A stretch of DNA of 64,000 nt from Gammaproteobacteria bacterium. Its GTDB lineage: Bacteria > Pseudomonadota > Gammaproteobacteria > Ga0077536. Below are positions 55,508-64,000 of this stretch, piece by piece. The stretch spans positions 1 to 64,000 of the forward strand of contig JACQWY010000008.1 in assembly GCA_016209015.1 (NCBI GenBank), written 5' to 3'. Position 1 is the first letter of the stretch; each line of letters begins with the position of its first letter. The translations under genes were made by a program, and so were the position numbers. The notes beneath the pieces were generated by a model. That model searched no databases and was not told the DNA's origin. It worked only from the letters and a program-made list of their open reading frames with translations.

Positions 55508-56041
55508 ATGGCAGCAAATCCCTCCAGCTTGCGCGGCAGCACAGCCGCGCCTCGCAAGTCCAAGGCGTCCGCGACCCCTGCGGCTGCCGGCGCCGGGACC
55601 TTTTACGACGGCGACACCTACGTCGTCGACGAATCCTACAACCTGCTCCTGCGCCGCCTGCACGCCTCCGTGCTCCGGCACATCGAGGCGCGCATGCAGC
55701 CTCTCGATCTGACCGCGATGCAATGGGGACCGCTGATGCTGCTCGCGGCCGGCAAGGGCAATACCGCGGCCGCGCTGTCGCGGCTCTCGGAGATCGACAC
55801 CGGCGCGATGACGCGCATGCTCGATCGGCTGGAGTCGAAAGGCCTCATCGCCCGCCAGCGCAGCAAGGAGGACCGGCGCATCGTCTATCTAGAGCTCACG
55901 GAGGAGGGCCGCAAGGCCGCCGCCGCCGTGCCGCACGTCATCTCGGAAGTCCTGAACCTGCATCTGCAGGGCTTCACGAGCGAAGAGTTCACGCTACTCA
56001 TGGGCTTCCTCCGGCGCATGCTCGCGAACGGTTCGGCCTGA
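55508..56041 (+). CDS. MarR-family regulator of the efflux operon
   Basis: 177 residues. The N-terminal 30 residues are Ala/Pro/Ser-rich and probably disordered. The winged-helix MarR domain follows (RLHASVLRHIEARMQPLDLT, EIDTGAMTRMLDRLESKGLI, RSKEDRRIVYLELTEEGR). It is the first gene of a marR-OEP-emrA-emrB operon. No ribosome-binding site precedes the ATG, which fits the leaderless promoter found upstream. Confidence 0.92.
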   Translation: MAANPSSLRGSTAAPRKSKASATPAAAGAGTFYDGDTYVVDESYNLLLRRLHASVLRHIEARMQPLDLTAMQWGPLMLLAAGKGNTAAALSRLSEIDTGAMTRMLDRLESKGLIARQRSKEDRRIVYLELTEEGRKAAAAVPHVISEVLNLHLQGFTSEEFTLLMGFLRRMLANGSA

Positions 56042-56064
56042 TCGCGGATCGCAGGCGCGGAACC

Positions 56065-57540
56065 ATGTCGAAATACCTGCCGAGGCAGTTACCGCCTGGT
56101 CATCTATTTCCCTGCGCGGCGTGGGTGTTCGCGCGCCGTGCGCTCGCCGTCTGCACCGCCGGCCTCGCGCTCGCCGGCTGCGTGAGCCCGGCCGGCATCG
56201 GGCACCAGGGCAAGGCGCTCGAGCCTGCCGCGATCGTGCCGCAGGCGGAATATGCGATCTGGCCCGGGGACGCGTGGTGGCAGGAGTACCGCGAGCCGCG
56301 CCTCGCGGCGCTGATTGCCGAGGCGCTCGCCGCGAACCCGGGCCTCGCCGCCGCGCAGGCCCGCATCGCGAAAGCGGGCGCGCTCGTCGCGGGGGCGAAA
56401 TCCCGCCTCGCGCCGCAGGTGTCCGCCGGCTTCTCCAGCAGTTTCCAGCGCTATCCGATCAACGGCATCTTCCCGCCGCCGCTCGGCGGCAGTGACGATT
56501 CCGAGAATCGCCTCGCCGTCGACGCGACATGGGAGCTCGATTTCTTCGGCCGCAATCGTGCCGCGCTGGCCGCTGCGAACGCCGGGGCCGCGGCGAGCGC
56601 GGCCGAGGCCCAGGCCGCGCGCCTCGCCGTTGCGGCCGCCGTCGCCAGGAATTATTTCGAAATCGCCCGCCTGCTCGCCCAGCGCGAGATCGCGGTCGCG
56701 ACACGCGACCAGCGCGTGCGCATCGCGAAGCTCGTCGCGGCGCGCGTCGAGGAGGGGCTCGACTCGAACGTCGAGCTGCGCCAGGCCGAGGGCGCGATCC
56801 CGCAGATCGAGGGCGAGATCGCGCGCCTCGACGAAGCGGTGGGGCTCACGCGCGCCGCGCTCGCGACGCTCGTCGGCGGTCGCGCGGAAGCGACGCGCGA
56901 TCTCGCGCCCGCGCTCGCCGCCGCGCCGACGCCGCAATTGCCCGGCGCCATCCCGTCCGATCTCCTCGCGCATCGCGCGGACGTCACTGCGGCACGCTGG
57001 CGTGTCGAGGCGGCATCGCACGACATCGCTTCGACGCGCGCCGAGTTCTACCCGAGCGTGAACCTCACGGCGTTCGCGGGCCTCGCCTCGCTCGGCCTCG
57101 ATCGCCTGTTCGAAGCGGGCTCCGGCACGTTCGGCGTCGCCCCCGCGGTCAGGCTGCCGATCTTCGACGCGGGCCGCCTGCGCGCGAAGCTCTCGGCCGC
57201 GAACGCCGATCTCGACGGCGCGATCGCCGACTACAACCAGACGTTGCTGAGCGCGCTGCAGGAGGTCGTCTCGACGATCACCGCGATCCGCGCGCTCGAT
57301 CGTCAGATGAGCGAGCAGCGTGCCGCGCAGGCCGCGGCCGAGAGCGCCTACGAGCTTGCGCTGCAGCGCTATCAGGTCGGCCTCACGAACTATCTCACCG
57401 TGCTCACCACCGAGAGCGGGGTGCTCCAGCAGCGCCTCGCCGCCGCGGATCTCAAGGCCCGCGCGCTGGTGCTCGACGTCAACCTCAAACGCGCGCTGGG
57501 CGGCGGCTATCGGGCCGACGCCGTGGCGAGCAACCGCTGA
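56065..57540 (+). CDS. Outer-membrane efflux lipoprotein (NodT/OprM-like)
   Basis: 491 residues from the ATG at 56065. Lipobox LALAGC gives lipidated Cys at about residue 39. Two OEP repeats (about 75-270 and 285-480) contain the coiled-coil heptads typical of TolC-type channels (AVAAAVARNYFEIARL, ALQRYQVGLTNYLTVL). It forms the outer-membrane duct for the EmrAB-like pump encoded just downstream. Confidence 0.92.
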   Translation: MSKYLPRQLPPGHLFPCAAWVFARRALAVCTAGLALAGCVSPAGIGHQGKALEPAAIVPQAEYAIWPGDAWWQEYREPRLAALIAEALAANPGLAAAQARIAKAGALVAGAKSRLAPQVSAGFSSSFQRYPINGIFPPPLGGSDDSENRLAVDATWELDFFGRNRAALAAANAGAAASAAEAQAARLAVAAAVARNYFEIARLLAQREIAVATRDQRVRIAKLVAARVEEGLDSNVELRQAEGAIPQIEGEIARLDEAVGLTRAALATLVGGRAEATRDLAPALAAAPTPQLPGAIPSDLLAHRADVTAARWRVEAASHDIASTRAEFYPSVNLTAFAGLASLGLDRLFEAGSGTFGVAPAVRLPIFDAGRLRAKLSAANADLDGAIADYNQTLLSALQEVVSTITAIRALDRQMSEQRAAQAAAESAYELALQRYQVGLTNYLTVLTTESGVLQQRLAAADLKARALVLDVNLKRALGGGYRADAVASNR

Positions 57541-57550
57541 AGGATCCGCC

Positions 57551-58825
57551 ATGGCAGACTCCGCTACGACCCACGACAACGCGCCCAGGAAGAACCGCCG
57601 CCGCGTGCTGCTGCTCGCGCTGCTCACCATCACGTTCCTCGCCGCGGGCATCGTCGCGGGCGCCTACTGGTGGCTCGTCGCGCGCTTCTACGAGCATACG
57701 GACGACGCCTACGTCGCGACGAACGTCGTGCAGGTCACCCCGCTCGTCGGCGGCACGGTGATCGCCGTGCGGGTCGAGGACACGGATCGCGTCACGGTCG
57801 GTCAGCCGCTCGTCGAGCTCGATCCCGCGGATACGCAGATCGCGCTCGACCAGGCGGAAGCCGAGCTCGCGAAAACCGTGCGCGAAGTACGCACGCTGTT
57901 CGCGAACGACGCTTCGCTCGCCGCGGACCTCGGCGTGCGCCGTGCCGAGTACGAGCACCGGCGCACGGATCTCGCGAAGGCGCGCGACGACCTTGCGACA
58001 CGCCAGCGCCTCGTCGCGAGCGGCGCGGTCGGCAAGGAGGAGTTGAAGCACGCCGAGTCCGCGCTCGCCTCGGCGGAGGCCGCGGCCGCCGCCGGCAAGG
58101 CCATGATCGTCGCCGCCGAACAGCGCCTCGAGTCGAGCCGCGCGCTGACCGAGGGCACCTCGGTCGAGGCGCATCCGAACGTCGCGCGCGCCGCGGCACG
58201 CATGCGCGAAGCCTATCTCGCGCATGCGCGCACGAAGATCATGGCGCCCGTCGCCGGCTTCGTCGCAAAGCGCGCGGTGCAGGTCGGCCAGCGCCTGCAG
58301 GCCGGTGCGCCCCTGCTCTCGATCGCGCCGCTGAACGAAGCCTGGGTCGATGCGAACTTCAAGGAAGGTCAGCTCGCGCACATGCGCATCGGCCAGCCCG
58401 CGAAGCTCACGGTCGATCTCTACGGCAAGCGCACGGAGTTCCATGGCCGCGTCGCCGGCCTCGGCGCCGGCACGGGCGCGGCGTTCGCGATCCTCCCGGC
58501 GCAGAACGCGAGCGGCAACTGGATCAAGATCGTGCAGCGCGTGCCCGTGCGCATCGAGCTCGATCCGGCGGAGCTCGAGCGTTATCCGGTGCGCGTCGGC
58601 CTCTCCGCCCAGGTCGAGGTCGACATCCGCCACGAGGACGGCCCGGTGCTCGCCGCGGCGCTGCGCCGCGGTGACGAGAACCGCACGACGATCTACGACG
58701 ATGCGATGCAGGCCGCGGATGCGCGCGTGAAGACGATCATCGCCGCGAATCTCGGCGACGCGCACGCTGCGATCGCGACGCACGACAGCGTGCCTGCGCA
58801 CGCCGGCATCGCCGCGGTGAAGTGA
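57551..58825 (+). CDS. EmrA/HlyD-type membrane fusion protein
   Basis: 424 residues from the ATG at 57551. One N-terminal membrane helix (about 19-43), then a barrel-sandwich/lipoyl domain (YEHTDDAYVATNVVQVTPLVGG type, split here as EHTDDAYVATN and VGGTVIAVRVEDT) flanking a long coiled-coil hairpin, then a beta-barrel (GQLAHMRIGQPAKLTVDLYG). It bridges the MFS pump and the OEP channel. The EmrA-like VDANFKE motif is present. Confidence 0.92.
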   Translation: MADSATTHDNAPRKNRRRVLLLALLTITFLAAGIVAGAYWWLVARFYEHTDDAYVATNVVQVTPLVGGTVIAVRVEDTDRVTVGQPLVELDPADTQIALDQAEAELAKTVREVRTLFANDASLAADLGVRRAEYEHRRTDLAKARDDLATRQRLVASGAVGKEELKHAESALASAEAAAAAGKAMIVAAEQRLESSRALTEGTSVEAHPNVARAAARMREAYLAHARTKIMAPVAGFVAKRAVQVGQRLQAGAPLLSIAPLNEAWVDANFKEGQLAHMRIGQPAKLTVDLYGKRTEFHGRVAGLGAGTGAAFAILPAQNASGNWIKIVQRVPVRIELDPAELERYPVRVGLSAQVEVDIRHEDGPVLAAALRRGDENRTTIYDDAMQAADARVKTIIAANLGDAHAAIATHDSVPAHAGIAAVK

Positions 58826-60393
58826 GCGGCCCCGTGTCCGCCGCGCCCTATCGTCCGCCGCCGCCGCTCGAGGGCCTGAAGCTCGTCGTGAGCACGATCG
58901 CGCTGTCCGCGGCGACGTTCATGAACGTGCTCGACACCTCGATCGCGAACGTCTCGATCCCCGCCATCTCCGGCGATCTCGGCGTCGCGCCGAACCAGGG
59001 CACGTGGGTGATCACGTCCTTCGCGGTCGCGACCGGCATCTCGCTGCCGCTCACCGGATGGCTCACGCAGCGCTTCGGCGCCGTGAAGCTCTTCACGCTG
59101 AGCGTCATGCTGTTCGTGCTGATGTCCTGGCTGTGCGGCGTCGCGCCGAGCATCGAGCTCCTGATCGTCTTCCGCATCCTGCAGGGCGTGGTGGCCGGCC
59201 CGATGATCCCGCTCTCCCAGTCGCTGCTGCTCGCGAGCTACCGCAAGGAGGCCGCGGGCTTCGCGCTCGCCATGTGGTCGATAACGACGCTCGTCGCGCC
59301 GATCATCGGGCCGCTGCTCGGCGGCTGGATCACCGACAACATCAACTGGCAGTGGATCTTCTACATCAACGTCCCGGTCGGCATCGTCGCCGCCGGAGCG
59401 ACCTGGCTGCTGTACCGCGATCGCGAGACCCCGACCGTCCGCAGGCCCGTCGACGTCATCGGTCTCGCGCTGCTCATCGTCTGGGTCGGTTGTTTCCAGA
59501 TCGTGCTCGACAAGGGCAAGGAGCTCGACTGGTTCCAGGCCTGGGAAACCTGGGCGCTCACGATCACCGCGATCATCGCGTTCTGCTTCTTCCTGGTGTG
59601 GGAGCTGACGGACGACCATCCGATCGTCGATTTGCAGTTGCTGAGGCGCCGTAACTTCTGGGTCGCGACGCTCACGGTGGCGCTCGGCTACAGCGTGTTC
59701 TTCGGCAATCTCGTGATCCTGCCGCTGTGGCTGCAGCAGAACATGGGCTACACGGCGACGCTCGCCGGCGTCGCGACGGCGCCCGTCGGCATCCTCGCGA
59801 TCCTCATCTCGCCGTGGGTCGGCAAGAACATCGGGCACTCCGACGCGCGCCTGTTCGCGACCGTCGGCTTCGTCATATTCGCGTTCGTGATGTGGATGCG
59901 TTCCGGCTTGAACACGGATGCGGATTTCCACGCGATCCTGGTCCCGACTGTGTTGCAGGGCGCGGCCATGGCGTTCTTCTTCGTGCCGCTGATGAATCTC
60001 GCGCTGTCGGGCCTGCCGCCGGAGAAGATCCCCTCGGCGTCGGGACTGTTCAACTTTCTGCGCATCACCGCCGGCGCGTTCGGCGCTTCTGTCGCGACCA
60101 CGATGTGGGACAACCGCGCGGCCTTCCATCGCGCGTTCCTCTCGGAGAGCATCGATCACACGAACGCGTCGCTCGCGGCGTCCATGGACGTGCTGCGCGA
60201 ACAGGGCTGGTCGGGTACTGCGCGGCTCGCGGAAGTGGAGGTGATGCTGCGTCAGCAGGCTTACATGCTGGCCGCGAACGACGTGTTCTATTCGGGCGCG
60301 CTGCTGTTCATGTTTCTGTTCCTCGTCGTCTGGCTCGCCCGGCCGGCCAACGTCCGCGCGACGGCCGCCGTCGACGCGGGCGGGGCGCACTGA
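58822..60393 (+). CDS. EmrB/QacA-family (DHA2) MFS drug exporter
   Basis: 523 residues from a GTG at 58822 that overlaps the stop of the fusion-protein gene (GTGA). Fourteen membrane helices are expected. Motifs of DHA2 exporters: LDTSIANVSIPAISGDLG in helix 1 and GWLTQRFGAVKLF (motif A) after helix 2. With EmrA- and TolC-like partners it expels hydrophobic drugs or aromatic acids. It ends 12 bp from the convergent GntR gene. Confidence 0.94.
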   Translation: MSGPVSAAPYRPPPPLEGLKLVVSTIALSAATFMNVLDTSIANVSIPAISGDLGVAPNQGTWVITSFAVATGISLPLTGWLTQRFGAVKLFTLSVMLFVLMSWLCGVAPSIELLIVFRILQGVVAGPMIPLSQSLLLASYRKEAAGFALAMWSITTLVAPIIGPLLGGWITDNINWQWIFYINVPVGIVAAGATWLLYRDRETPTVRRPVDVIGLALLIVWVGCFQIVLDKGKELDWFQAWETWALTITAIIAFCFFLVWELTDDHPIVDLQLLRRRNFWVATLTVALGYSVFFGNLVILPLWLQQNMGYTATLAGVATAPVGILAILISPWVGKNIGHSDARLFATVGFVIFAFVMWMRSGLNTDADFHAILVPTVLQGAAMAFFFVPLMNLALSGLPPEKIPSASGLFNFLRITAGAFGASVATTMWDNRAAFHRAFLSESIDHTNASLAASMDVLREQGWSGTARLAEVEVMLRQQAYMLAANDVFYSGALLFMFLFLVVWLARPANVRATAAVDAGGAH

Positions 60394-60405: not shown

Positions 60406-61125
60406 TCAGTCCCGCGCGTACACCTCGTCCCCCAGACGCTCGTAGGCCTGGCGCACCATGCGCAGATGGCGCTGCATCGCCGCCTCCGCGGCCTTCGCCT
60501 TGCCCTTGAGGATGTAGCGCGCGACGGTCTCGTAGTCCTGGTAGTTGCGGGCCCGCACGCGTGCCGGCAGATGATGCTCGAACTGCGCGCGGATGATGTT
60601 CGTCTCGGGGATCGGCACAAAGCGCGCGAGCTCCTGGTTGCCGCCGATCGCGACGAGCTCCTCGTAGAAGCGCAGCCGGGTCTCGAAGACCTGCGCCGTG
60701 TTGCCGCGGTCGCGCGCCGCGAAGAGTGCGTCGACCGCCGCCTGGAAGCGTGCGCCGTGATCGCCTTCCGCGATGTGCTCGGCGGCGAGGCGCGCGGCGA
60801 GACCGGTGAGATGTTCCTGGATCGCGAGGATGTCGTTCACCTTGCGCCGCGTGAGCTGGCGGATCGCCGCACCGCGATTGCGGTGCAGCTCGACCATGCC
60901 CTCGGCCGCGAGCCGCTTCAGCGCTTCGCGCACCGGGCCCCGGCTCACGCCGAGCTCGAGCGTGAGATCCGCCTCGACGAGACGCTGACCCGGCACGTAG
61001 CGCCCGCGCCGCACGCCGTTCCTGATGTAGGCCGCGACCTGGTCCGACGAGCTCAGCACCGCACTCGCCTTGCCTCGCGCCTTCGCGCGCCCGGCCGTCC
61101 GCTGTGTTTCCGGTTTCGTCATCAT
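60406..61125 (-). CDS. GntR-family regulator (FadR/FCD type)
   Basis: 239 residues. N-terminal winged HTH (QVAAYIRNGVRRGRYVPGQ, ELGVSRGPVREALKRLAAEG) and C-terminal FCD helical effector domain with the metal-binding pattern Asp/His/His (about 100-225; the last in AMQRHLRMV). It is divergent from the swivel/520-residue/ligase operon and most probably controls it. The effector is likely an organic acid or an intermediate of that pathway. Confidence 0.92.
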   Translation of the reverse strand: MMTKPETQRTAGRAKARGKASAVLSSSDQVAAYIRNGVRRGRYVPGQRLVEADLTLELGVSRGPVREALKRLAAEGMVELHRNRGAAIRQLTRRKVNDILAIQEHLTGLAARLAAEHIAEGDHGARFQAAVDALFAARDRGNTAQVFETRLRFYEELVAIGGNQELARFVPIPETNIIRAQFEHHLPARVRARNYQDYETVARYILKGKAKAAEAAMQRHLRMVRQAYERLGDEVYARD

Positions 61126-61207
61126 GCGACCCGCCGCGGGCCGGGATTCCCGTCCGCGTGTCCCGTTGTGCGCTGCATTATGGAGAGCCCTCCGGCGGTG
61201 CGGAAAG

Positions 61208-61264
61208 ATTGTAGGACAATATCGTAGTACCTAAATTGACAGTCGCATAGGGCCGCAGGATACT
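61208..61264 (+). promoter_or_regulatory. GntR operator and promoter of the swivel-protein operon
   Basis: ATTGT-AGG-ACAAT (61208-61220) is a perfect inverted repeat with a 3-nt centre, of the FadR/FCD subfamily type. Downstream TTGACA (61236-61241) and GATACT (61259-61264) are 17 bp apart, a near-consensus sigma-70 promoter, with the start expected near 61271. The site at the -60 region may serve GntR's own promoter on the other strand, or activation here. Confidence 0.65.
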
Positions 61265-61303
61265 ACGGCGCCCGCGACTCCCGGGCGGCAGAGGTGAACG
61301 GTG

Positions 61304-62047
61304 ATGGCGAGACTCCACGGCGACGTCGACAAATACGGCTCCGAAGTGCCGGCGCCGGTGACTGCGGCATTCCATGGTGCGGTGCAGGATCTGGTGCGGC
61401 GCCGTCTCGCCGAGAGCGGCCTGGGCTGGAACGACTTCGTGTTCGGCGCCGCGCAGACGACGATCACCCGCGCCGACTTCGAAGCCATCGATCGCCGCCT
61501 GCTCGATTACGGGCACCGCTACACCTGGTCCGCCGTCGTCTCGCAGCAGGAGCGGCCCGAGGCCTACAAGCCTGTCGAAGGCGTGGGCGAGGATCTCTCC
61601 ACGTTCTCGTTCCGTCATCCCGAAGCCCCGACCGCACCCGTCGACGATCAAGGCCGCGAGCTCGTCGGCTGCGGCGACAACGTCGTGAGATACGACGAAG
61701 ACCTCGTCGGCATCGCGCGCTACGTGCGCTCGAGCGCGCAGGTGCTCGAGTACCTGACGAACGGCGTACCGCCCGGCACGATCGCCGTCATCGACGATTC
61801 CGGCGGCACGCTCACCGCGCCCATCCTCGAACAGTTCGCGGGCGTGCTCTGCGCCGGCGGCACGGTGCGCTCGCATCTCGGCATTCTCACGCGCGAGTAC
61901 GGCATCCCGTGCTTCATGAACTCCAGGCTCTCCGGCATCCTCGACGGCGATCGCGTGCGCATGGAATGCACGGGCAAGGCGAAAACGGCGGACATGTACC
62001 AGAAGGGCGTCGAGCAGACGGCGCGCGTCTGGCGTCTCGCGAAGTAA
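61304..62047 (+). CDS. Free-standing PEP-utilising enzyme swivel (phosphohistidine) domain protein
   Basis: 247 residues from the ATG at 61304 (GAGGTG at the right distance; GTG one codon earlier is possible). The C-terminal half carries the mobile-domain motif: His191 in TVRSHLGILTREYGIP corresponds to the phospho-His of PEP synthase and rifampicin phosphotransferase. No ATP-grasp and no PEP-binding TIM barrel are present, so a partner must supply them. The N-terminal 110 residues have no motif I recognise. Next gene is 12 bp away. Related swivel proteins occur in phenylphosphate synthase, but full similarity cannot be judged here. Confidence 0.75.
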   Translation: MARLHGDVDKYGSEVPAPVTAAFHGAVQDLVRRRLAESGLGWNDFVFGAAQTTITRADFEAIDRRLLDYGHRYTWSAVVSQQERPEAYKPVEGVGEDLSTFSFRHPEAPTAPVDDQGRELVGCGDNVVRYDEDLVGIARYVRSSAQVLEYLTNGVPPGTIAVIDDSGGTLTAPILEQFAGVLCAGGTVRSHLGILTREYGIPCFMNSRLSGILDGDRVRMECTGKAKTADMYQKGVEQTARVWRLAK

Positions 62048-62059
62048 GGGGAACCGAGG

Positions 62060-63622
62060 ATGAGCAGGACGCCGCTGACTTACGCGCAGTTGCTGGAGAC
62101 GAACAATCTCATCCAGCAGAATACCGACGAGACCTACTGGCTCTGCATCACGCGCACGGTGCAGGAATCGAAGCTCTTCCCGGTCTCGCCGTACATGGTG
62201 CTGTCCTACTTCATGGCCTTCTACCGCTATCCGCCGCTGCTCCGAAAAATCGAGCAGCACATGAAGGCAGAGGAGATCGGCAATCGCTGCCGCAACATGG
62301 GCATCAAGATCCAGAATCCGGCGATGGGCTGGGCGCTGCCGTCGTTCTATCTGCTGGGTCGCGAATATCTCATCAACCTCGGCCTGCTGCGGGCGCAGGA
62401 TGCGGTCGAGGACATCGTCTACGTGATGGACTTCTGGAAGCGCTTCCAGCTCGCCTGGCATCGTAATGACGCGCACCTCACGAACCGCGATTTCGGCCAT
62501 CGCTCGCAAATCCTGCCGGAGCGCCGACTGCAGGTCTTCCACGCCGATCTCTACGACTGCACCGAGGGCGATGCGCTGCACACGGCCGCGCAGGCCTTCA
62601 TGGCCGCGACCTCGCAGTACGGTTTCCTGGTCTCCTGCGAGAGCCGCATCGCGCTCTGCAACCAGGGCCCGTACAGGCTCGACGACGATCGCGAGATGAT
62701 CGTCCGCGACTTCATGGATCTCGCCGAGGGCGATTATCCGTGGCTCGACGGCGTCGGCGCCGACATGCCCTACAACAACCTCACCGTGCCGATGGCCGTG
62801 AAGGGCTGCCATTTCAACATCGTGGACGATTGGGGCTCGTTCGAATCGCAGCCCGAGTTCAAGTCGCATCACATGGTCGCCGTCGGTCTCTACACCTCGG
62901 ACACGCTCTCCGAAGGCTATCTGCCGGTCGGCATGGGCAGCCGCGAGGAGCTCACGCAGACGTTCGAGACGTTGACGGTGCGCGCGAAGGAGGCGACTGC
63001 GAAGCTCTGGAAGCGCATCGCCGGCTGGTCGCGCGACCAGATGATGGACGCGGGCGCGATCACCTATTTCGCAATCGTGAAGGATCTCGCGCACGTCGCG
63101 GGCTGCTACGAAATGGAGGACTGGATGCTCGTCGACGAGCGCGCCGAGCGCTTCAGGCCGCTACTGAACGACGAGTACGCGAACCTGTCGCTGTGGGAGA
63201 TCCTCGGCCCGCTCGCGAATCCCGCGCAGCGTCTGAACGAATACCAGATGTGTCAGCACGCGGATCTGCCCGCGCGCATGCTCTCGCTCATTCCGTACTC
63301 CATTCTCGATACCGGGGACTGCACGGCGACCTCGGGCGACATGGCGCCCGGCATCACCTACCTGCCGCCGAAAGAGGATCGCTACCGCACGACGGAAGGC
63401 GTGCTGACGCTCGCGGAGTACAACCGCCGGGCGCGCGCCTTCGTCCCCGCGACCTCGGCGCCGAAGTTCGAGAACCTCTGCGAATCGTGGCTCAAACATC
63501 ATTACGACACGCCGCTCGCGGACGAACTCTATCGTCTCGAGCAGCGCGAATCGCGCACGCTGAAGGACCGCGGCGCCGGACTCCGGCGCGCGGACGTCGA
63601 ACGCCTGCGCCACGGGAAATGA
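62060..63622 (+). CDS. Unassigned 520-residue protein
   Basis: I do not recognise a family. It is 520 residues without signal peptide or membrane segment, so cytoplasmic. The composition is ordinary for a folded enzyme, rich in Trp, Tyr and Met (LMDF-type and MGWALPSFYLLGREYLINLG segments). Possible functional spots are HRNDAHLTNRDFGHRS, a Cys cluster around HADLYDCTEGDALH and VSCESRIALC, and DDWGSFESQPEFKSHH. It lies between the swivel protein and the CoA ligase in an operon with gaps of 12 and 4 bp. Roles to consider are a catalytic partner of the swivel protein or a substrate-binding subunit. Confidence 0.85.
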   Translation: MSRTPLTYAQLLETNNLIQQNTDETYWLCITRTVQESKLFPVSPYMVLSYFMAFYRYPPLLRKIEQHMKAEEIGNRCRNMGIKIQNPAMGWALPSFYLLGREYLINLGLLRAQDAVEDIVYVMDFWKRFQLAWHRNDAHLTNRDFGHRSQILPERRLQVFHADLYDCTEGDALHTAAQAFMAATSQYGFLVSCESRIALCNQGPYRLDDDREMIVRDFMDLAEGDYPWLDGVGADMPYNNLTVPMAVKGCHFNIVDDWGSFESQPEFKSHHMVAVGLYTSDTLSEGYLPVGMGSREELTQTFETLTVRAKEATAKLWKRIAGWSRDQMMDAGAITYFAIVKDLAHVAGCYEMEDWMLVDERAERFRPLLNDEYANLSLWEILGPLANPAQRLNEYQMCQHADLPARMLSLIPYSILDTGDCTATSGDMAPGITYLPPKEDRYRTTEGVLTLAEYNRRARAFVPATSAPKFENLCESWLKHHYDTPLADELYRLEQRESRTLKDRGAGLRRADVERLRHGK

Positions 63623-63626
63623 CCTC

Positions 63627-64000
63627 ATGCAAATCGGTACGCTTATCCGTCGCGCCGCACGCTACTACGCGGACACCCCCTGTCTCGTCGAAGGCACGCG
63701 CAGCATCACGTTCAGGGAGTTCGACGCCGCCACCGACCGGCTCGGCAACGCGCTGCTCGCGCGCGGCCTCGTCCCGGGCGACCGCGTCGCCGTCGCGCTC
63801 GCGAACAGCATCGAGTGCCTCGTCGCCTATTACGCGACGGCAAAAGCCGGGCTCGTGCGCGTCGGGCTCAACACGCGCGAGACGCTCGACAACCACAAGT
63901 ACAAGATCGCCGACAGCGGCAGCCGCGCGGTGATCCATGCGGGCATCGAGGGCCTCGAAGCGGAGATCCTGATCGGGCCGGAAGAGCTCACCGCCATGAT
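63627..64000 (+). CDS. AMP-forming acyl-CoA synthetase, N-terminal part (cut by the window edge)
   Basis: About 124 residues are visible from an ATG at 63627 to the window end. Sequence such as SITFREFDAATDRLGNALLA, PGDRVAVALANSIECLVAYY and KAGLVRVGLNTRET is typical of the N-terminal region of ANL ligases. AMP-binding motif lies beyond the window. Four bases from the previous stop, so translationally coupled. It would activate an acid as its CoA ester, perhaps the product of the two upstream proteins. Confidence 0.85.
   Translation, partial: MQIGTLIRRAARYYADTPCLVEGTRSITFREFDAATDRLGNALLARGLVPGDRVAVALANSIECLVAYYATAKAGLVRVGLNTRETLDNHKYKIADSGSRAVIHAGIEGLEAEILIGPEELTAM

Follow-up and report, generated by a model that had tools for sequence, protein, structure and literature searches.

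The DNA considered here is the first 64 kb (the window) of the 115-kb contig JACQWY010000008.1 from the Gammaproteobacteria bacterium assembly GCA_016209015.1, and its right-hand end holds three forward-strand genes that open an operon: a lone swivel protein of the phosphoenolpyruvate (PEP)-utilizing type (P0001, 247 amino acids, 61304-62047), a 520-residue protein without known family (P0002, hereafter U520, 62060-63622), whose gene is conserved together with the swivel gene, and an acyl-CoA ligase, of which only the 5' part (63627-64000) lies in the window and whose gene extends to contig position 65096. Open reading frames and family searches in the downstream stretch L099 (contig C1, 60000-79000) demonstrate that the operon continues beyond the window edge with co-directional, closely spaced genes. 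These encode a 200-residue winged-helix-like protein (HTH200, 65096-65698), a truncated pyruvate phosphate dikinase (PPDK, 65707-67461), a biotin carrier protein (BCCP, 67505-67999), a biotin carboxylase (BC, 68007-69377), an HMGL/PYC-type carboxyltransferase resembling pyruvate carboxylase subunit B (CT, 69385-70845), a thiolase (70852-72039) and an SDR protein (72316-73101), all on the forward strand, and beside the SDR gene a SurE-family phosphatase gene faces the operon on the reverse strand (73138-73926). We consider it probable, at roughly 0.68, that the whole is a catabolic operon, of which the window covers the first half, and that it encodes a small-molecule dikinase of several subunits coupled to a biotin-dependent carboxylase.

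The sole Pfam match of P0001 is PEP-utilizers (E 3.7e-6, above the cut-off). Its swivel domain spans approximately residues 119-246 and is preceded by a helical N-terminal part, and the AlphaFold2 model matches the swivels of RPH, PPDK, pyruvate kinase and enzyme I of the phosphotransferase system (PTS) with Z 12 and 2.1-2.2 Å over about 106 residues. The domain is also homologous to the swivel of PpsA (hhalign E 3e-9). His191 (SHLGILTREYGIPC, codon 61874-61876, forward strand), predicted to be the phospho-acceptor, is invariant in 48 of 48 aligned homologues. Pfam finds no C-terminal PEP/pyruvate barrel in P0001 or in U520.

U520 has no match in Pfam or in NCBIfam, the model PRK08296 included, and none in the PDB by sequence or profile. 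Its AlphaFold2 model is confident (pLDDT 91.3, pTM 0.92), with a shallow alignment behind it (Neff about 2.5), and retrieves nothing significant from BFVD or, by Foldseek and by VIA-align, which examines only Foldseek's own candidates, from the PDB. RPH is not among the Foldseek and VIA-align matches, which leaves room for a shared fold. An alignment of relatives reveals many invariant Arg, Asp and Tyr residues. Two possible affiliations were rejected: hhalign against two PpsA-type proteins gave a probability of 0.1% for a PpsA/HpeH-type substrate domain, and comparison of U520 with the swivel protein gave no homology. We propose that U520 is the subunit that binds the substrate and provides the phosphoacceptor site. 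An earlier note, made from the window, had described a swivel protein that keeps its phospho-His motif, a neighbour of no recognizable family and a CoA ligase following after a 4-bp gap, and all of this holds, with the ligase starting at 63627 and the complete ligase matching the AMP-binding family with E 7e-73. The note's remark that there is no ATP-grasp domain is true of the swivel protein, but for the operon is an artefact of the window edge, as the truncated PPDK lies beyond it.

This PPDK scores 724 bits against the NCBIfam model for truncated PPDKs, PRK05878 (cut-off 456). It matches PPDK_N and PEP-utilizers only, and residue alignment to solved PPDKs identifies an ATP-grasp domain and a swivel of its own; neither domain search nor alignment finds a C-terminal pyruvate/PEP TIM barrel. 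The swivel histidine is invariant in 31 of 31 sequences, and the ATP-site residues are retained. The same architecture of ATP-grasp and swivel without pyruvate barrel is seen in the truncated PPDK VadK (Rv1127c), which autophosphorylates its histidine (PMC13400623). VadK is described as a stand-alone regulatory kinase, whereas the PPDK of the operon sits with HTH200, a swivel and a candidate substrate domain.

How far do these genes belong together? A single scan of GTDB genomes yielded 77 loci, in which genes of relatives were called by clustering of open reading frames and not taken from curated annotation. Complete stretches from gamma- and alphaproteobacteria keep the order swivel, U520, (ligase), HTH200, PPDK, BCCP, BC, CT, thiolase, and the same genes occur in partly rearranged order in sphingomonads, actinobacteria and one Bacillus. 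In a set of 40 related genomes, U520 and HTH200 have the same distribution, both being present in the identical 20, and strong swivel matches are confined to these 20, with weak generic matches in 3 further genomes. Of the 20, 17 also have the truncated PPDK, which in G014 is divided between two contigs. It is absent from the other 20 genomes, where PPDK matches over the threshold lie in full-length frames of 894-967 residues. The co-occurrence of U520 with the truncated PPDK has a Fisher p of 2.6e-8 overall and of 0.001 within the family, both being optimistic due to relatedness. All 15 further genomes reached through the loci, from three phyla, carry U520 and a truncated-type PPDK, mostly close by.

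Fusions tie the components still closer. On Rhodococcus opacus plasmids, the 793-residue protein WP_043827458.1 (‘PEP-utilizing enzyme’) consists of a swivel (16-113), a U520-like region (206-559) and an HTH200-like region (603-790), and its gene adjoins genes for a truncated PPDK and a Y_phosphatase3 (tyrosine-phosphatase-family) protein. This arrangement suggests that swivel, U520, HTH200 and PPDK together make up a single enzyme. The full operon is present in R. oxybenzonivorans and R. pyridinivorans, along with further swivel-U520 pairs or fusions. HTH200 itself gives no significant family match, and public records label several of its homologues as MarR or MarR-like; as it is fused with swivel and U520-like parts in the R. 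opacus polypeptide, it is more likely a part of the enzyme than a MarR regulator. In actinobacteria without U520, HTH200 directly adjoins PPDK-type genes, VadK-like ones included. HTH200-like genes lie beside VadK-like truncated PPDK genes in Mycobacteriales (L138 6964-9162, and contigs G162:C1, G153:C7 and G131:C16), and U520 was not found in the Mycobacteriales genomes with this pair, except in Pseudonocardia.

In Mycobacterium branderi and Rhodococcus sp. ZPP (L141 and L142), truncated PPDK and HTH200 adjoin a protein whose substrate region is RPH/PEP-synthase-like and is followed by a C-terminal swivel; by comparison, U520 stands where a substrate domain would be expected. Read most simply, truncated PPDK and HTH200 form the constant part of the system, and swivel and substrate domain form a variable part, in which U520 is an unrelated substrate domain. 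Further modules of the variable kind were observed. In the genome studied here, a second swivel-U520-HTH200-SDR module extends over two contig ends (L101, contig C62, 1-2994; L127, contig C52, 1-450), and in relatives such a module comes after a Y_phosphatase3 gene. Roseiarcus (L136 6938-12116) has a second swivel/U520-like/HTH200-like set, followed by an 899-residue PPDK-like frame that is not truncated. A distant third module with 25% identity to U520 (L105, L106 7991-9403, L107 5788-11396) comprises a DUF7064/7065 protein, a HAD phosphatase, a 138-residue swivel, U520-like and HTH200-like proteins and a Rieske oxygenase. On plasmid RPME01 of the fuel-oxygenate degrader Methylibium petroleiphilum PM1 (L135 8890-11779), a cluster for a cobalamin-dependent mutase (B12-binding protein, AMP-binding protein, MeaB and methylmalonyl-CoA mutase family) has immediately upstream of it the genes for the U520-like MPE_RS22095, the lone swivel MPE_RS23080 and the HTH200-like MPE_RS22110, labelled ‘MarR’, and these are preceded by a gene for a protein resembling the DUF7064/7065 protein of L107. 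Near second-type swivel-U520 modules, genes like hydantoinase/acetophenone carboxylase A and B were noticed by eye (L029, L033, L034, L036, L077), which may be coincidental.

The carboxyltransferase is homologous over about 400 residues to solved structures (E 1e-46 to 4e-61) and 37% identical to that of an Hpe-type cluster on a Rhizobium plasmid. It differs from the carboxyltransferases of pyruvate carboxylase, oxaloacetate decarboxylase and transcarboxylase 5S, as well as from Hpe-like ones, at two positions: Y175 stands at the position of the carbamyl-lysine and N207 at that of the second metal histidine, and each of these replacements is found in 40 of 43 sequences. The two Hpe/Acv-like carboxyltransferases examined keep the lysine and the HxH motif (L139, where the kinase is present, and L140, where it is not in the stretch). 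We take these columns to be the metal ligands by alignment, as is established for transcarboxylase 5S and pyruvate carboxylase. Loss of a metal that polarizes the ketone would fit a substrate that is activated in another way, for example as enol phosphate, and could also mean an altered activity. The biotin enzyme was at first considered as an acetone carboxylase of the biotin-dependent kind of Gram-positive bacteria, but this was dropped, as there is no substrate evidence for it. Of the 51 loci of at least 15 kb, 34 have a SurE, PTP-like or HAD phosphatase gene nearby, and in this genome and several relatives a SurE gene, one of two or three copies, lies on the contig of the truncated PPDK.

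The gene set recalls the Hpe pathway. There, hydroxyphenylethanones receive a phosphate through a dikinase, and only the phosphorylated ketone is carboxylated by a biotin enzyme; a phosphatase then takes the phosphate off, with a CoA ligase and a hydrolase proposed for the final steps (PMC9618137, PMC12167813). For HpeHI, HpeCBA, HpeD, HpeE and HpeF, the kinase, carboxylase and phosphatase steps have been shown biochemically (PMC9618137, PMC12167813). The operon shares with the Hpe-type systems (HpeHI/HpeCBA/HpeD/HpeE/F of Rhodococcus rhodochrous GD02, AcvABCDEF of Sphingobium SYK-6, XccBCA of Aromatoleum EbN1) a common order of steps, i.e. histidine-swivel dikinase, three-subunit biotin carboxylase, phosphatase, CoA ligase and beta-ketoacyl-CoA cleavage (PMC9618137), and the corresponding genes (kinase, BCCP, BC, CT, phosphatase, CoA ligase and cleavage enzyme) are complete at the locus. 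The individual parts differ. In place of the Hpe kinase there are a PPDK-type donor with its own swivel, a lone swivel, U520 and HTH200; the HAD phosphatase is replaced by SurE or PTP-like phosphatases, and the CouO-type hydrolase by a thiolase; and while Hpe-type substrates are aromatic, there is no sign of an aromatic substrate at the operon. As in phenylphosphate synthase PpsAB, CreHI and RPH, an ATP-grasp donor, a moving phospho-His swivel and a separate substrate domain would cooperate (PMC12167813), but U520 is not detectably related to their substrate domains, and in the fusions the swivel is N-terminal, not C-terminal, to it. Moreover, the reference PpsB is of the PEP-synthase type, whereas the donor of the operon is of the PPDK type with a swivel of its own. 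A literature search for a published system of PPDK, biotin carboxylase and ketone found only the Hpe papers relevant.

By analogy, the operon most likely encodes a small-molecule dikinase of a new architecture that would be isofunctional with the Hpe/Acv acetovanillone pathway. From the Hpe-like logic, the phosphatases near the loci and the CoA ligase and thiolase in the operon, we infer the following course of reactions. The truncated PPDK would phosphorylate its own swivel histidine with ATP (probably also with phosphate, as in PPDK), and the phosphoryl group would pass to a small substrate bound in U520, either directly or via His191 of the lone swivel, with HTH200 as a structural partner of the dikinase. 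The substrate would most likely be a methyl ketone that becomes phosphorylated on a hydroxyl or enol oxygen. The BC/BCCP/CT complex may then carboxylate the phosphorylated substrate, SurE (at other loci a PTP-like or HAD phosphatase) may dephosphorylate the carboxylated product, the CoA ligase would activate it, and the thiolase would cleave it to acetyl-CoA and a shortened acyl-CoA. The earlier note had suggested a split phosphotransfer system that activates a substrate before CoA thioesterification. The split system is borne out by gene order, co-occurrence, the R. opacus fusion and the truncated PPDK as candidate donor, but the carboxylation was missed; the suggestion was incomplete, because the conserved set also includes a biotin carboxylase of three subunits, a thiolase and a phosphatase. 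Neither of the two outcomes that the note named as refuting it appeared: U520 did not turn out to be a known enzyme, and the order of the genes is kept in relatives.

Several points weigh against this proposal. U520 has no detectable relation to the substrate domains of PpsA/HpeH or RPH, so its role is suggested by genome context. At the positions of the carbamyl-lysine and of one metal histidine the carboxyltransferase has other residues, so that carboxylation activity is not assured. Three of the 20 U520 genomes are without a full truncated PPDK, which contig edges or incompleteness may explain for two of them, not for G010, and most of the genomes behind the co-occurrence counts belong to a single bacterial family. 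Furthermore, 17 of the 51 long loci have no clustered phosphatase, and four loci with swivel, U520 and HTH200 (L106, L107, L135, L143) show no carboxylase in the stretch seen. Phosphorylation and carboxylation are therefore separable.

What alternatives exist? The lone swivel and the PPDK each retain their own histidine, and the lone swivel also structurally matches enzyme I. Of the 12 related genomes with two U520/swivel modules, 11, including the one studied here, have a single truncated PPDK and one has none, and in several genomes the genes are distributed over different operons, PPDK together with carboxylase and, apart from these, swivel-U520-HTH200. It is therefore plausible that one donor serves several acceptor modules, like enzyme I in the PTS. 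In its full form, which overlaps with the dikinase proposal as a narrower version of it, one truncated PPDK would feed several swivel carriers from histidine to histidine, each with its own U520/HTH200 module and substrate. The modules would phosphorylate ketone or alcohol catabolites, possibly to enol phosphates as PPDK does with pyruvate, the metal-less carboxyltransferase would carboxylate the product, and VadK of Mycobacterium would be a relic or relative of the system. We regard this full form, with either emphasis, as a tentative possibility, because we know of no precedent for histidine transfer between two swivels, and because the lone swivel could receive its phosphate straight from the ATP-grasp domain, as has been proposed for HpeI and HpeH.

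It is rather unlikely that the genes encode a regulatory phosphorelay, in which the truncated PPDK would act on proteins and swivel and U520 would take up phosphate to regulate carboxylase or thiolase. Such a role would have a model in VadK, which is reported to bind enzymes of the methylcitrate cycle as a regulatory histidine kinase and to be required for the virulence of M. tuberculosis (PMC13400623), and would agree with the MarR-like annotation of HTH200. However, phosphatases from three families lie clustered with the genes, HTH200 forms part of an enzyme-like fusion polypeptide, U520 is large and rich in invariant Arg, Asp and Tyr, and the swivel-plus-substrate-domain proteins beside the same donor resemble RPH-type small-molecule dikinases. 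Every family of the operon, taken singly, has housekeeping members, and the operon could in principle be a chance assembly of a gluconeogenic enzyme similar to PPDK, a carboxylase of anaplerotic function and a CoA ligase for fatty acids. This is highly improbable, as the same set recurs across three phyla with fusions and matched co-occurrence, the PPDK lacks the pyruvate barrel, and the carboxyltransferase lacks the metal site of pyruvate carboxylase.

Divergently from the operon, a GntR/FCD transcriptional regulator is encoded at 60406-61125 on the reverse strand (Pfam GntR 1.2e-17, FCD 1.1e-12), and the nearest relatives have a divergent FCD homologue at the same place. The perfect inverted repeat ATTGT-AGG-ACAAT (ATTGTAGGACAAT, 61208-61220), pointed out together with the regulator in the earlier note, is the only such palindrome in the window and a probable FCD operator. 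It recurs in the divergent-FCD relatives examined: the palindrome ATTGTAGAACAAT stands once per locus, 74-100 bp upstream of the swivel gene, at L003-L008, L080-L082, L086 and L102, and it is absent at L083, L084 and L104, loci without an FCD match. The regulator would control the operon via the ATTGT-N3-ACAAT site. Farther upstream, genes for a MarR regulator, an outer-membrane factor, an HlyD/EmrA-like protein and an EmrB-like MFS protein follow each other (55508-60393), by sequence an ordinary tripartite efflux operon.

If the proposed dikinase is real, it would assign a testable role to the U520 family, to the 200-residue family annotated as ‘MarR’ and to truncated PPDKs of debated function. 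Small-molecule dikinases would then extend beyond the design of PpsAB, HpeHI and RPH, and the operon would represent another way of carboxylating ketones with the help of phosphate, put together separately from the first, with a carboxyltransferase of the pyruvate carboxylase type from which the metal site has been lost.

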